A stretch of 64,000 bases of DNA from the NCBI GenBank assembly GCA_949291115.1, contig CASETY010000004.1, positions 1 to 64,000 of the forward strand, read 5' to 3'. Position numbers and translations under genes: made by a program. Positions within the stretch are counted from its first letter, which is position 1. The number at the start of each line of letters is the position of its first letter. The stretch is from an uncultured bacterium. GTDB lineage: Bacteria > Bacillota_I > Bacilli_A > Acholeplasmatales > Anaeroplasmataceae. Positions 4,182 to 52,735 of this stretch are shown here, piece by piece. The notes under the pieces were generated by a model, which saw nothing but the letters and a program-made list of their open reading frames with translations, had not been told where the DNA came from and made no database searches.

Positions 4182-5165
4182 TTAAATACTATAATTTCCC
4201 ATAATTAAATAATCATATAGTATTTTTAAGATTTTTTCTTTTTCAGTCTCTTTAAATATTTGGTTTTTAATTTGACTAGAATTAGGTTTACCTTTTAAAT
4301 ACCAAGCGATATGACTGCGCATTTCTAAAGCAGCTAAATGAGATCCTTTTAAATTTTCTAGCATATTATAATGTTCTAAAATTAAATTATAAATTTCTTC
4401 ATTAGTTGGCTTTTCTAAAACAACACCTTTATCAAAATAGTTAACTAACTCTCTAAATATAAAAGGATTACCTAATGAACCCCTACCAATTGCAATTGCT
4501 TTACAACCAGTTTTAAAAAGAGCTCTCGCACTTTCAATATCAACTACATCACCATTACCAATAACGGGAATATTAACAGCTTCAACGACGTCTCTTATAA
4601 CATCATAATTTGCTTTACCAGTATAAAATTGACTACGAGTTCTACCATGAACAGTAATAGCTTTGGCCCCAGCTTTTTCAATTAATTTAGCGTTTGTTAC
4701 CGCATTGATATTATTTTCATCCCAACCAATTCTTATCTTTACTGTTACGGGTTTTTTAACAGCTTCAACTACACTTTTAACTATATTATATACATTGTCC
4801 GGGTCTTGCAATAAAAAGGCTCCAGCATGCGCTTTTTTCGCAACTTTATTAACAGGACAACCCATATTAATATCGATGATATCAGCATCTGTATTTTGAT
4901 CAATAAACTTTGCAGCCTCAACTAAAGATGAAATATCGCCGCCGAATATTTGCATGGAAATCGGGTGTTCCAATGGATTAACTTTTGTCATTTTTAATGT
5001 CTTTTTATTGCCATAACTGATGGCTTTGTCAGAAACCATTTCCGCAACAACTAGCCCTGCCCCCATTTGTTTACAAATAAGTCTAAAGGCTTCATTACAA
5101 ACACCAGCCATAGGGGCTAAAATAAATTGATTTTTAATTAAAACATCACCTATTTTAAACTCCAT
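4182..5165 (-). CDS. dusB: tRNA-dihydrouridine synthase
   Basis: A 327-residue FMN-dependent enzyme that reduces uridine to dihydrouridine in tRNA D-loops. Seen motifs are the N-terminal APMAGVCNEAFR, DINMGCPVNKV with the catalytic Cys (about residue 99), KIRIGWDE, the HGRTRSQFY segment and GNGDV / IGRGSLGNPF of the TIM-barrel phosphate-binding site. The length is typical of the DusB branch found in Firmicutes. The start is the ATG giving MEFKIGD, 8 nt after AGG; a GTG three codons upstream is less likely. It overlaps the end of maf by 11 bp, so the two are translationally coupled. Confidence 0.93.
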   Translation of the reverse strand: MEFKIGDVLIKNQFILAPMAGVCNEAFRLICKQMGAGLVVAEMVSDKAISYGNKKTLKMTKVNPLEHPISMQIFGGDISSLVEAAKFIDQNTDADIIDINMGCPVNKVAKKAHAGAFLLQDPDNVYNIVKSVVEAVKKPVTVKIRIGWDENNINAVTNAKLIEKAGAKAITVHGRTRSQFYTGKANYDVIRDVVEAVNIPVIGNGDVVDIESARALFKTGCKAIAIGRGSLGNPFIFRELVNYFDKGVVLEKPTNEEIYNLILEHYNMLENLKGSHLAALEMRSHIAWYLKGKPNSSQIKNQIFKETEKEKILKILYDYLIMGNYSI

Positions 5166-5724
5166 ATTTTTCACCTATTTCTAAAATTATCTCTTTTACT
5201 TCTTTTATTGGTAGACCTATAATATTTTCTAATTCACCACTATATTCTTTAACTAGTTTTTTACCTATTCCTTGAATGGCATAACTGCCAGCTTTATTAA
5301 AACATTCTTTTGTTTTTATATAATTATAAATATCTTCATCAGTTAAATCATTAAAAGTAACTAACGATTCTACTACATCATTATAGATGGCATCTTTATA
5401 AATAATAGCGTAACCACTAAGCACTTGATGAGTTTTGCCACTAAATTTTTTTAACATTAAAAACGCATCATTTTCATCTTTAGGTTTTCCATAAATAACA
5501 CCATCTAAAGCTACTATGGTATCACAACCAATGACCAAAGCATCTTTATAAATTTCTTTTGTTTTTAGGGCTTTTTTTAAGCCTAAAGCTTTAACGTTTT
5601 CTTTAACTGACTTACTTAAATCTATTGTTTCATCTACTTCTGGCTTATATACTATAAAATCAAAACCGGCTTCTTTTAATAATTGTAATCTTCTTGGTGA
5701 AGATGATCCTAAAACAATTCGCAT
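5155..5724 (-). CDS. maf: Maf-family nucleoside triphosphate pyrophosphatase
   Basis: 189 residues beginning with the family signature LGSSSPRR (residues 5-12), followed by the acidic EVDE and the conserved CDTIV (about 68-72), GKP and GxxHxV segments. Maf proteins hydrolyse dTTP/UTP or modified nucleotides to monophosphates and are linked to cell-division arrest and sanitation of the nucleotide pool. It is the first gene of a pair with dusB. The divergent gene tilS starts 157 bp away, so a shared intergenic region carries both promoters. Confidence 0.92.
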   Translation of the reverse strand: MRIVLGSSSPRRLQLLKEAGFDFIVYKPEVDETIDLSKSVKENVKALGLKKALKTKEIYKDALVIGCDTIVALDGVIYGKPKDENDAFLMLKKFSGKTHQVLSGYAIIYKDAIYNDVVESLVTFNDLTDEDIYNYIKTKECFNKAGSYAIQGIGKKLVKEYSGELENIIGLPIKEVKEIILEIGEKYGV

Positions 5725-11858: not shown

Positions 11859-12887
11859 TTATCTTTTGTTTTTAGGTATACTTATTATAAACATTTTAGA
11901 AGTAGCCATGATAACCGGCTCTATTTGATGTTTTTTTGAACGATTGTAGATTTCTTTAATGCCATTATATTTAAATAAATTAACATAATTAAGCATTTTA
12001 AAGACTTTAACTAATTTAGGATTTCGTGAATTGGTTTTGCCTTCTATAACATCTTCTGTTTTTAAATTATAAATACCACCAGGTGATATAAAATTAATTT
12101 TATTAGGACTCACTTCTACTTTAATTGTTTCGTTTACTTGCCAGTTACGATGAACAAAGGCATTAATTAAAGCTTCTTTTAAGATGACTTGATCGTAGTT
12201 TTTAATATTTACAAAGTAATTCAATATATCATCTATTTGTTTAAGAATTGATCCTTTAAAAAATTTACGTTTAATTATGTTGTTTTTATTATCCACTAAA
12301 TAGATTTTGGCTTTTTGCTTAAAGTTATCACTTAGTAAATAGGCTAAATTGGTATATTTGTTTTCTTTTAAAAGTCCACAAGTTTCATAATTAAAGTAAC
12401 ATTTGTTTTCTTTTACTTTATTTTCTAAATATTTAAAATCAAGTAATTTAAAATTAGAAAGTAAATCTTCATAGTGAAGATTGTTGCTTTCTAGCTTTAA
12501 TTCTTCAATTTGTTTAGTGGTGGCTGGGAATTTAGATGTTTCAAAACGAACAAATACACCCTTGTTATTACAACCAACGTTAGTTAAATAATAAGGTTTA
12601 TTGTCACCTTCACTAACTGATATTTCTAAAACGCCATCTTCATTCCAATTAAGATTAATAAAATTTTGAGGATTAGGGCTGATTACATTGCCAGCCAACC
12701 AATTTATAATCTTAGATTCTTCAATGTCTTTTTCTTTTCTTGATAGTTCCCAGTGCAAAATGCCCCGATCATCAACACCGACATAAATAGTTCCTCCATG
12801 TGTATTTAAAAAAGCAATAATTTCCTTTTTTATTTCAGGAGTTACTTCTCTTTTTAATTCTGTTACTTCACTTTCATAGTATTTCAT
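11859..12887 (-). CDS. AlbA_2-domain ATP-binding protein (putative transcriptional regulator)
   Basis: 342 residues. The N-terminal 110 residues are an AlbA_2 (Schlafen-type) domain with E-S-x-x-x-E-L-K-R and the segment IIAFLNTHGGTIYVGVDDRG. The C-terminal part has the RNHPNPKLV-like motif GKTNSRNPKLVKVFKML and ALINAFVHRNW of COG2865-type proteins, usually annotated as ATP-dependent regulators or helicase-related. The role in this family is not established. I chose the ATG with GGTG about 8 nt upstream; two GTG codons further up are less likely. It has its own terminator and appears monocistronic. Confidence 0.75.
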   Translation of the reverse strand: MKYYESEVTELKREVTPEIKKEIIAFLNTHGGTIYVGVDDRGILHWELSRKEKDIEESKIINWLAGNVISPNPQNFINLNWNEDGVLEISVSEGDNKPYYLTNVGCNNKGVFVRFETSKFPATTKQIEELKLESNNLHYEDLLSNFKLLDFKYLENKVKENKCYFNYETCGLLKENKYTNLAYLLSDNFKQKAKIYLVDNKNNIIKRKFFKGSILKQIDDILNYFVNIKNYDQVILKEALINAFVHRNWQVNETIKVEVSPNKINFISPGGIYNLKTEDVIEGKTNSRNPKLVKVFKMLNYVNLFKYNGIKEIYNRSKKHQIEPVIMATSKMFIISIPKNKR

Positions 12888-12942: not shown

Positions 12943-13026
12943 AAAAAACCTAGTCACAATGTTTGGTCGCTTATGGCTGCTACCTCTCGGTCCTGACCAG
13001 GTTCACTACAAACAATTGACTAGGGT
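12943..13026 (-). ncRNA. ffs: Signal recognition particle RNA, small bacterial type
   Basis: Read on the minus strand, the core GGTCAGGACCGAGAGGTAGCAGCC matches the Ffh-binding domain of 4.5S/SRP RNA: the asymmetric loop CAG-A and a GNRA-type tetraloop (here GAGA), plus the AGCAGCC 3' strand. Terminal strands CCCTAGTCA and TGACTAGG pair, and a run of Ts follows. This is the short, domain-IV form lacking an Alu domain. It works with Ffh and FtsY in co-translational targeting of membrane proteins. Confidence 0.93.
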
Positions 13027-13064
13027 GAATAAATAATACCATTTTTGTTTAATTTAAGCAAGTA

Positions 13065-16260: not shown

Positions 16261-16288
16261 TGTACCTTACACTCCTTCCGCCATGATA

Positions 16289-16340
16289 TTACTACCATAG
16301 TAAGCGTTAAGATTCTACCATAAGTAGCCTTTTATTGCAA
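16289..16340 (-). promoter_or_regulatory. rpmE promoter and leader hairpin
   Basis: On the minus strand TTGCAA (16340-16335), 17 bp spacer, TAGAAT (16317-16312) with an upstream TGG that resembles an extended -10. The leader contains TTACTA-tgg-TAGTAA (16303-16289), a 6-bp hairpin just upstream of GGAAGGAGTG. L31 leaders in several phyla are autoregulatory, but I cannot match this one to a named motif. Confidence 0.5.
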
Positions 16341-37000: not shown

Positions 37001-37042
37001 AAAATGAGAGCTTGATTCTTAAAGATTCAAGCTCTTTTTTTT
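37001..37042. terminator. Bidirectional terminator between pduL-like gene and histidine kinase
   Basis: GAGCTTGA (37008-37015) pairs with TCAAGCTC (37027-37034), followed by a run of eight Ts on the plus strand. The convergent kinase gene ends at 37041, so the hairpin can serve both. Confidence 0.85.
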
Positions 37043-38366
37043 ACTTATAGATTACAAAAGAAACGCCACCATTCTCTTCATTATAAACATTAAGTTTTAA
37101 ATTAAAGAAATCAAGTGTTTTCTTTACAATACTCATACCTAAACCAAATTGACCTTTAGCACCTTTTTCATAGGCTTTAAAATTACCATTTAAAAAAGCA
37201 TCTTCAATATGAGGACCGTCATTATAAATAGTTACCTTATTCTTCTTTGTGGTTATAATAATTTTTGATTTAGCGTATCTTAAGGCATTATCTAATATAT
37301 TGCCAATAACTGTTATAAAATTATCACGATAACCATCGAAGTAACAATCCTCTAAGTTTAAAACAATGTCAACTTTACCATTAAATGTATACGGAGACGC
37401 TACTTCTTGACATATTTCTTTCATGTTAATTTGTTCAAACGACTTATCTTTAGATAAATATTCTAGTTTATTATATTGTAATAATTGATTTACTTTTTCT
37501 TTTAAAATATCAGCTTGTTTTAAAATAGTCTCGGCTGCCTCTAAATTTAAAACACCATCTTGAATAGCTTCGGCATAATTTTTAATAACCGCAATTGGTG
37601 TTTTAAAATCGTGACTAACATTTTGTAACATTTCTTGTTTAGTTAATTCTGAATTTTTAATATCCACACGCATTTCTTCAATACTTAAAGACAATTCCGT
37701 TATTTCATCATTACCTTCATCAATATATTCTTCACTATAATCACTAGATTTAATATGATTAACATGTTCTTGTAACTTCTTAATTCTTTTAATTAGTTTA
37801 TTAATCCAAACAGAAACAATAACTGATATTAAAATTAAAACTAAGCTAAAGATTAAAGCTACATAAGCTATCATTCTTTGTTTAAACATGTTTGTATAAT
37901 CATCATTAATTAAAAATACAACAAAGTTATGATAATCAAATTCATCTATTTGGCGTGATAAGGCTATTTTATAGTAATAAATATCACCTTGACTTAAAAC
38001 AAATTCACCAATATCACTTTGTAAATTAAAAGCATTATTGATTACTTCATCTAATATTTCTTCACTACTAACTATATTAAAAGGATCGTTATAATTTGTT
38101 ATTAAAACATTTTTATCTTCAATATTTATTTTACCTTGAATAATCCAAAAATTATAATTTTCATCAGAAGAAGTTTTGATTTCTTCACCATTTTCCCAAG
38201 CAAAAGCTGTAATTGAAGAATAGGCATTTAATCTAAAATAAGTTTCATTTTCGGTTATATCACTTAAAATATTGATAATAACAATTAAAACTAAACCAAA
38301 AGCTGCCAAAATAAGTGAAAAAAATAGTAAGAATACTTTGGATGATATTCCTCTTTTAACTACCAT
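37041..38366 (-). CDS. Sensor histidine kinase
   Basis: 441 residues. Membrane helices at about 10-33 and 165-189 flank an extracytoplasmic sensor region of about 130 residues. Then come a HAMP-like linker, a HisKA domain with NVSHDFKTPIAVIKNYAEAI (phospho-accepting His252), and an HATPase_c domain with N-box DNALRYAKS and the GLGMSIVKK glycine motif. It phosphorylates the OmpR-type regulator encoded just upstream. Reading frames overlap by 7 bp (ATGGTAG). The signal is unknown. Confidence 0.93.
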   Translation of the reverse strand: MVVKRGISSKVFLLFFSLILAAFGLVLIVIINILSDITENETYFRLNAYSSITAFAWENGEEIKTSSDENYNFWIIQGKINIEDKNVLITNYNDPFNIVSSEEILDEVINNAFNLQSDIGEFVLSQGDIYYYKIALSRQIDEFDYHNFVVFLINDDYTNMFKQRMIAYVALIFSLVLILISVIVSVWINKLIKRIKKLQEHVNHIKSSDYSEEYIDEGNDEITELSLSIEEMRVDIKNSELTKQEMLQNVSHDFKTPIAVIKNYAEAIQDGVLNLEAAETILKQADILKEKVNQLLQYNKLEYLSKDKSFEQINMKEICQEVASPYTFNGKVDIVLNLEDCYFDGYRDNFITVIGNILDNALRYAKSKIIITTKKNKVTIYNDGPHIEDAFLNGNFKAYEKGAKGQFGLGMSIVKKTLDFFNLKLNVYNEENGGVSFVIYK

Positions 38367-39025
38367 AATAAACGATACCCATAACCATAAATAGTCTCGA
38401 CATTGAGGTTTTTCATCTTACTTCTTAGTCGTCTAAGCAAATCATCAACAACCCTGTCACTGCCAAAATATTCATCGCCCCAAACATGATTAATAATTTG
38501 TTCACGGGCTAAAGCTTTATTTTTATTTATAACTAAAAAGCATAATAAATCATATTCTTTAGATGTTAAAACAAGTTGTTCATTGTTTTCGTAAACACTT
38601 CTTTTATCTAAATCAATTAAATAACCATTATAATTAATAACATTGGTTTCTTGATTTTCTTTGTAACATCTAGCTAATATTCTTTTAACTCTTAAGACTA
38701 ATTCTCTAAGTGAATATGGCTTAGCTAAATAATCATCACTACCTAATTCAAGACCCATAACTTTATCAATATCTTGATCACGAGCAGAAGTAAAAATAAC
38801 TGGGATATCTTTGTTTTCTTCTTTAATGGCTTTAATCAAGTCATAGCCTGTTGTCATTCCTGGTAACATTATATCTAAAATCCAAAGATGAAAACTATCT
38901 TTTAAATGGTTTAAAGCTTCTTCTCCTGTCGTAAAAAGAACTGTTTGATAACCTTCTTTATCTAAATATTTAACTAATAGGTTAGCTAAATCTTTCTCAT
39001 CTTCTACAATCGCAATTTTATACAT
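38360..39025 (-). CDS. OmpR/PhoB-family response regulator
   Basis: 221 residues. The receiver domain has acidic pocket VEDE (about 7-10), phospho-acceptor Asp51 (ILDIMLPG), Thr/Ser in FTSA (about 78-81) and Lys102 (AKPYS). The C-terminal winged helix (about 130-221) contains LTSKEYDLLCFL and SDRVVDDLLRRLRSK. It is paired with the overlapping kinase gene. RBS AGAGGTG is upstream of the ATG. It lies 34 bp downstream of a strong terminator and a small RNA, and a promoter of its own can be drawn at 39050-39078. Confidence 0.94.
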   Translation of the reverse strand: MYKIAIVEDEKDLANLLVKYLDKEGYQTVLFTTGEEALNHLKDSFHLWILDIMLPGMTTGYDLIKAIKEENKDIPVIFTSARDQDIDKVMGLELGSDDYLAKPYSLRELVLRVKRILARCYKENQETNVINYNGYLIDLDKRSVYENNEQLVLTSKEYDLLCFLVINKNKALAREQIINHVWGDEYFGSDRVVDDLLRRLRSKMKNLNVETIYGYGYRLLW

Positions 39026-39049: not shown

Positions 39050-39078
39050 ATTATATAATAAAAAGTGATAAAGGACAA
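39050..39078 (-). promoter_or_regulatory. Possible promoter of the two-component operon
   Basis: On the minus strand TTGTCC (39078-39073), 17-bp spacer, perfect TATAAT (39055-39050). The -35 box lies in the terminator stem of the upstream RNA. If real, the two-component genes do not depend on readthrough from the small RNA promoter. Confidence 0.45.
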
Positions 39079-39180
39079 CCTATTAAAAGTTGTCCTTTAT
39101 CTGGGAGAGTTATAGTTTGCTTATGAAAAAGATATCTATCTATTAGGGAGAGTGATAGATACATGCTAGATTTAACTAGC
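39059..39180 (-). ncRNA. Candidate small RNA (or leader) with two CUCUCCC motifs
   Basis: Bounded by a strong promoter (39187-39216) and a 13-bp terminator hairpin. Read on the minus strand: hairpin GCTAG/CTAGC (39180-39165); an 8-bp hairpin TATCTATC/GATAGATA (39161-39154 with 39140-39133) whose 13-nt loop exposes CUCUCCC (39152-39146); a single-stranded A/U-rich stretch; a second CUCUCCC (39109-39103) just before the terminator stem. No coding frame is apparent. C-rich loops are typical of Gram-positive trans-acting sRNAs that pair with Shine-Dalgarno sequences. It could instead be an attenuating leader of the response-regulator gene 35 nt downstream. Confidence 0.65.
39067..39101 (-). terminator. 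Terminator of the candidate small RNA
   Basis: GATAAAGGACAAC (39101-39089 on the minus strand) pairs over 13 bp with GTTGTCCTTTATC (39079-39067), 9-nt loop, then AC and TTTTT. There is no T-run on the plus-strand side, so it is directional. Confidence 0.88.
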
Positions 39181-39186
39181 TTCAGT

Positions 39187-39216
39187 ATTATAGCATATTT
39201 CAATATGGTTTGTAAA
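39187..39216 (-). promoter_or_regulatory. Promoter of the candidate small RNA
   Basis: On the minus strand TTTACA (39216-39211), 18-bp spacer, TATAAT (39192-39187), with TGC just before the -10 (extended -10). Confidence 0.7.
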
Positions 39217-39325: not shown

Positions 39326-39844
39326 TTAATTATCATACATATCTTCAAAATCATCCATGTAATCATTATACTTATCTTCATCGAAGTCTTCATCTTCATC
39401 GTAACGTTCTAATAAATGACCTTCATCATCATGTTCGAAATCGTCACTATCATCTAAGTCTTCGTCTTCATTATCTTCGTCTTCTAATTCTTCGTCATAC
39501 ATATCTTCATCTAGTTCATCGTCTAAATCAAGACCTTCTTCATGATCGATAATTTCTTCATCATCTTCTTCAATATCTTCTAAATTGATGAAGTCAGAAC
39601 CATCTTTATCGTATTCTTTTAAAGATTGACGGCTTTTTAAATCCCATTCATCTTCACCCATATATACGAATTTTGCCGAAGTTGTGATATCTAAATATAA
39701 TTGAGTAGCGTAGTCTGTATTATTTAAATCTAAACCTTTAGCTTCTAAAGTTAATTTAATAAGGTCAGCCATTTTCATTTTATCATTATGTTCTGTTAAA
39801 ATTTTAGTAGCTACTTCTAACATTGATAATTGGTTTTCTTGCAT
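39326..39844 (-). CDS. rpoE: DNA-directed RNA polymerase delta subunit
   Basis: 172 residues. The N-terminal HARE-HTH domain (about 8-75: MLEVATKILTEH, LIKLTLEAKGL, SAKFVYMGEDEWDLKSRQSL) is followed by a long, almost purely acidic Asp/Glu tail (about 85-172) that is intrinsically disordered. Delta is specific to Firmicutes and increases promoter selectivity and polymerase recycling. A promoter with 17-bp spacing lies just upstream, and GGAGG is 7 nt before the ATG. Plus-strand frames across the acidic tail are artefacts of its repetitive codons. Confidence 0.95.
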   Translation of the reverse strand: MQENQLSMLEVATKILTEHNDKMKMADLIKLTLEAKGLDLNNTDYATQLYLDITTSAKFVYMGEDEWDLKSRQSLKEYDKDGSDFINLEDIEEDDEEIIDHEEGLDLDDELDEDMYDEELEDEDNEDEDLDDSDDFEHDDEGHLLERYDEDEDFDEDKYNDYMDDFEDMYDN

Positions 39845-52718: not shown

Positions 52719-52735
52719 TTTAAAGGAGAGAAAAA

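Follow-up and report, generated by a model that had tools for sequence, protein, structure and literature searches.

A small RNA gene ahead of a two-component system

The window, as we call the whole analysed stretch of 64,000 nucleotides, contains a two-component system (TCS) preceded by a compact non-coding unit, downstream of rpoE. The relevant features, all on the minus strand, are:

37041-38366, minus: sensor histidine kinase (HAMP, HisKA, HATPase)
38360-39025, minus: response regulator, OmpR/PhoB type (receiver and winged-helix DNA-binding domain)
39050-39078, minus: putative separate response-regulator promoter, TTGTCC-17-TATAAT (from sequence)
39060-39183, minus: small RNA (sRNA) of about 120 nt, TCS-linked member of its family (covariance-model match 39060-39179, 115 bits)
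39067-39101, minus: intrinsic terminator, 15-bp stem (fold and covariation)
39103-39109, minus: second CUCUCCC, at the 3′ end of the linker, directly before the terminator (sequence and fold)
39103-39131, minus: single-stranded linker CUUUUUCAUAAGCAAACUAUAACUCUCCC, about 29 nt (fold and conservation)
39132-39162, minus: second hairpin, 9 bp with a 13-nt loop (fold and covariation)
39146-39152, minus: first CUCUCCC, inside the loop of the second hairpin (sequence and fold)
39165-39180, minus: 5′ hairpin, GCUAG/CUAGC in the window (fold and genus orthologues)
39187-39216, minus: sRNA promoter TTTACA-18 bp-TATAAT with extended -10 (TGC) (from sequence)
39326-39844, minus: rpoE, RNA polymerase delta subunit, the upstream gene, which has a terminator of its own (39320-39289)

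The sRNA promoter hexamers, TTTACA (39216-39211) and TG-N-TATAAT (39192-39187), show 11 of 12 matches, and transcription is expected to start near 39181. An original prediction made from this DNA had already proposed the extended -10 promoter, the 5′ hairpin, the second hairpin with CUCUCCC in its loop and the other CUCUCCC before the terminator; promoter sequence and RNA fold agree with all of these. Its terminator was also found, with a stem (39101-39067) of 15 bp rather than 13, followed by the tail ACTTTTT. The region holds two terminators, against 0.1 expected from shuffled sequence. Promoter-like matches in the AT-rich spacer, in contrast, were no commoner than chance (4 vs 3.7), and the case for an sRNA therefore needed other evidence, above all conservation.

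At minimum energy the 124-nt RNA folds into exactly three hairpins and the open linker, and the energy of this fold is far below that of shuffled sequences (z = -7.05, none of 200 shuffles being equally stable). The open linker holds an anti-start-like UUUUUCAU in addition to the second CUCUCCC. An Rfam scan over the sRNA returned no family at its gathering score and no credible match at E<=5; the weak matches were at chance level, as for rliA with 17.7 bits against a cut-off of 50. Elsewhere in the window the same scan marked ordinary features, an L31 leader and the bacterial small SRP RNA, at 16272-16300 and 12943-13027.

Conservation, covariation and copy number

We examined the structure in 27 chosen members, where 95.5% of the cells were paired and covariation reached 0.359 vs 0.181 in shuffled alignments, none of 500 being as high. 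Sliding the pairing partners destroyed this signal. Among 30 divergent members, in a model-built alignment that leans towards the structure, all 19 pairs had changed on both sides (122 such cells; 0 of 500 shuffles), including the six modelled pairs of the second hairpin. The covariance model was built without the 5′ hairpin, the arms of which differ wholly in sequence among genus orthologues and yet are still complementary. With our first alignment RNAalifold recovered the terminator only, because MAFFT had misaligned hairpins 1 and 2; later work used a cleaner subset and an imposed structure. Thus covariation in related genomes, named as a check in the original prediction, was found in the hairpins, and the C-rich loops, loss of which in relatives was to speak against the RNA, have persisted: CUCCC or UCCC is kept in the loop of the second hairpin in nearly all copies.

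Most positions of the linker CUUUUUCAUAAGCAAACUAUAACUCUCCC do not vary, an invariance that is overstated since copies were partly selected by that very pattern. Weaker, model-based members vary more, and the parts kept in them are UUUUCAYAA, AACUAUAACUCUCCC and the UCCC in the loop.

In the family to which the window belongs, that of the gut bacterium Anaeroplasma bactoclasticum, the covariance model gave 80 matches in 47 of 55 genomes; the 105 genomes taken from the order's other families yielded none. The 47 genomes carry one to six copies each, the six being found in genome G001, while the window's own genome has three that the model recognises: the window copy and two on another contig (C9:18923 and C9:19252). 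A blastn of the region against 60 relatives found matches not only within the genus but also in other genera of its family, paralogues included. A scan for the exact linker, with one genome per species in 84,980 species, hit only records labelled Anaeroplasma, Anaeroplasmataceae or Acholeplasmatales, or loosely named MAGs (Mollicutes, Erysipelotrichaceae, Bacillales, uncultured); the linker was absent from all viral contigs scanned. Two linker copies, on NZ_QXEV01000002 and NZ_QXEV01000016, lie in the cultured type strain Anaeroplasma bactoclasticum ATCC 27112, which makes the family directly testable.

Although promoter-like matches occur at chance level and a 50-codon open frame crosses the window copy, neither a fortuitous combination of promoter, hairpins and terminator in an intergenic spacer nor a small protein gene deserves practically any credence. 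Both are already refuted by conservation with covariation, to which copy number adds; moreover, 14 of 57 copies lack any ATG and about half have ATG frames of at most 8 codons. By sequence comparison, conservation far above chance confirmed the observation that the window holds a real, previously uncatalogued small RNA.

Other units resemble the family without being recognised by the model. In the own genome a third unit lies between the two C9 copies (L038 about 5042-5250, G000:C9), with the same box (described below) and 5′ hairpin, a diverged linker with CCAAACCCUUUUGUUUACUUUCC and its own terminator. Some genomes that gave no model match (L301 of G013; L294 and L297) have hairpins, a terminator and a sequence resembling the box ahead of the response regulator, the G013 unit (L301) having UUCUCCCCCC where CUCUCCC would stand. 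These pre-regulator units are possibly diverged members.

The neighbouring regulator and a direct repeat upstream of sRNA promoters

In 36 genomes the response-regulator gene orthologous to that of the window has one sRNA copy immediately ahead of it on the same strand, 30-105 nt away in 35 of them and 522 nt away in the remaining one, which has an insertion. There (L003 1011-1469, G002:C44), the insertion of a short transposase-like frame has separated the sRNA terminator from the response regulator.

The sequences upstream of the copies share a direct repeat, CATAA-N5-CATAA (a CAYAWTTTNMCAYA-type box), present in strict form ahead of 35 out of 55, among them most TCS-linked copies, where it sits on the sRNA promoter. 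Its position is tightly held: it starts exactly 45 bp before the -10 in 28 copies and again in four more that were scored at 50, once the ambiguity of a TATAGTATACT-type -10 is resolved, while in three copies it is found at 65/66 bp, two helical turns further. The background is 2 boxes in 792 kb of strand. In the consensus of box and promoter, CATAaTTTC.CATAAtttT..gAtAaT, three half-sites follow one another at intervals of 10 bp and a -35 hexamer is lacking; read from the sequence, this is how promoters that depend on an OmpR-type activator are built. Across genera the recognition-helix region of the regulator, FGSDRVVDDL[LM]RRLR, is conserved, G022 having a single substitution. From this helix conservation and from the synteny we infer that the neighbouring response regulator binds the box. 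The box has been lost from the window copy and is also missing from the copies of three congeners; without a box and with a near-consensus promoter, the window copy is probably expressed independently of the regulator. A box also occurs 70-80 bp before a gene for a Bax-inhibitor-1-like membrane protein in three genus species (L179, L180, L190 near 1500).

The same synteny could mean that the RNA is a terminated 5′ leader of the response-regulator operon, with read-through (attenuation) controlling the operon, an option which the original prediction had kept. Same-strand placement at short distance fits this idea, and read-through from the box-bearing promoters of most TCS-linked copies would give autoregulation. 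Seven unlinked copies, however, including both modelled copies of the C9 array, face a convergent gene, so that there is nothing for them to lead. The terminator stems are strong and no conserved alternative pairing was seen, and in one genome an insertion separates RNA from regulator. In addition, the regulator gene has a TATAAT of its own after the terminator in 17 of 22 TCS-linked copies. A separate regulator promoter, which had been thought drawable, is indeed present as sequence in the window (39078-39050), and there and in several congeners the 3′ arm of the terminator includes a TTGTCC 17-18 bp before TATAAT, an arrangement shared by most TCS-linked copies of the genus; the sRNA terminator could thus also provide the -35 for the promoter of the regulator gene. 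Because of the convergent-facing copies and this TATAAT, a leader-only attenuator is disfavoured and we hold it quite improbable. The view that the RNA is independent and exposes C-rich motifs has, in contrast, gained strong support from its multiple copies, its covariation and its standalone copies.

Relation to known sRNAs and possible mode of action

The anatomy of the window sRNA recalls several systems of low-GC Gram-positive bacteria, among them listerial and streptococcal stress RNAs. LhrC1-5 of Listeria monocytogenes are multi-copy sRNAs regulated by LisRK which block Shine-Dalgarno (SD) sequences through CUCCC (PMC4132741). The window family is likewise multi-copy (1 to 6 per genome), and its window member has redundant CUCCC/UCCC motifs in a loop and a single-stranded stretch. 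Two-component control may be a further likeness, as suggested by box and regulator synteny, the window copy itself having no box. Unlike LhrC, the window sRNA has an extra 5′ hairpin and no third CUCCC in the terminator loop, and it gave no credible Rfam match to any family; one copy of the family adjoins the regulator gene, and Hfq was not detected in 55 family genomes. In the csRNAs of the streptococcal CiaRH regulon, anti-SD and anti-AUG sequences lie in an unpaired region and the operator is a direct repeat (PMC3091779). These too are multi-copy and related through the unpaired region between hairpins, and the window linker is comparably unpaired, with UUUUUCAU (anti-AUG, CAU) and CUCUCCC (anti-SD). 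A direct repeat ahead of the -10 is likewise shared, but CATAA-N5-CATAA starts 45 bp before it whereas TTTAAG-N5-TTTAAG of the csRNAs ends 10 bp before; the linker sequence is another one and no csRNA family was matched in Rfam. RsaE, FsrA, SprD and RNAIII pair with targets through an exposed C-rich UCCC in a loop or single strand (PMC4132741), and such a motif is exposed in the window sRNA as well, with different promoters and structure and no sequence match in Rfam. By design, the sRNA would work like LhrC and csRNAs; in view of the missing Rfam match and the different operator we count it as a member of neither; it represents a new family of known design.

We probably deal, in our judgement, with a trans-acting sRNA gene, the TCS-linked member of a multi-copy family peculiar to Anaeroplasma-type Mollicutes, which is under TCS control and acts against translation starts independently of Hfq. 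Computation shows the unit of about 120 nt, its covarying hairpins, the linker, the copies, the regulator synteny and the box. The remaining steps would be as follows. An envelope or membrane signal would lead the neighbouring OmpR-type regulator to bind the box and switch on the sRNA copies, the C9 array keeping this regulated form, unlike the box-less window copy. CUCUCCC, complementary to GGGAGAG, would then pair with purine-rich SD stretches of mRNAs, and UUUUUCAU, being complementary to AUGAAAAA, with AUGAAAAA-type start codons, and translation of a set of mRNAs would be blocked without Hfq, for which no match above cut-off was obtained in 55 genomes while five control genomes were positive.

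The search for targets yielded none, though such a failure does not prove their absence. In a screen of separate stretches making up about 41% of the own genome, window included, duplex energies of the linker over 426 translation starts were no better than those of 40 shuffled linkers. SD blocking, as originally proposed, is plausible by anatomy and by analogy with LhrC and csRNAs, but shows no enrichment in the energy screen. Looking for GGGAGAG near start codons had also been suggested; in the own genome, GGGAGAG-N-ATG was found before no real gene, and its matches were the antisense strands of the sRNAs themselves and, at C9:12122, that of a second sRNA candidate. The gyrA ribosome-binding site, put forward as a perfect partner, does carry GGAGAG (52725-52730), but the motif is confined to the window species and absent in seven of seven congeners, and we rejected this target. 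Two other candidates were dismissed: a spermidine-type permease gene with GGAGAG, the site of which is not conserved, and the minus-strand gene at 469-1233, encoding an orphan secreted-type protein (MKRILTIILLF...). The latter offers the best two-part pairing in the window, the linker covering SD and AUG with about -19.4 kcal/mol, but it has no orthologue in the seven congeners.

The lack of enrichment over translation starts also bears on a different function, in which the linker would sequester an RNA-binding protein or another RNA instead of acting on many mRNA starts. Its 29 nearly invariant unpaired nucleotides exceed what a simple SD-blocking seed needs, which we count against the anti-start mechanism, and multiple copies would raise the dose of such a sponge. 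The linker, however, includes two blocks, UUUUUCAU resembling an anti-start element and CUCUCCC resembling an anti-SD element, a similar module is carried by a second RNA class that has a different promoter, and no candidate protein is known; we regard sequestration as rather unlikely.

This would be a clearly delimited sRNA family in bacteria without detectable Hfq, from a Mollicutes branch (Anaeroplasma) in which our literature search turned up no study of sRNAs. In Mollicutes as a whole it has predecessors, since sRNA predictions for Mycoplasma have been published (PMC5088518, PMC6199787). The family would represent a third, apparently independent case of a TCS joined to a multi-copy sRNA with exposed anti-SD/anti-start motifs and would speak for convergent circuit evolution. 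More tentatively, and with less confidence than doubt, one may imagine a shared start-blocking network in Hfq-less Anaeroplasma-type bacteria: the TCS-controlled family and at least one further sRNA class with a cre-like promoter would share a UUUUCA...CUCUCCC module, so that envelope and carbon signals might converge on the same mRNAs, in a circuit that arose independently of LisRK-LhrC and CiaRH-csRNA.

The second candidate class was noticed in the own genome at about 12061-12181 of G000:C9 (L113 1440-1560, L165). It has a cre-like promoter, TTGACAAGCGCTTTCA, with TATTAT/TATATA, and a short RNA ending in AACUUUUCAAAUAAUCUCUCCC just before the terminator. A blastn search showed relatives of this unit in G001, in several genomes of g6 and in two of g5 (L166-L170, L172, L174, L175, L177, L178).
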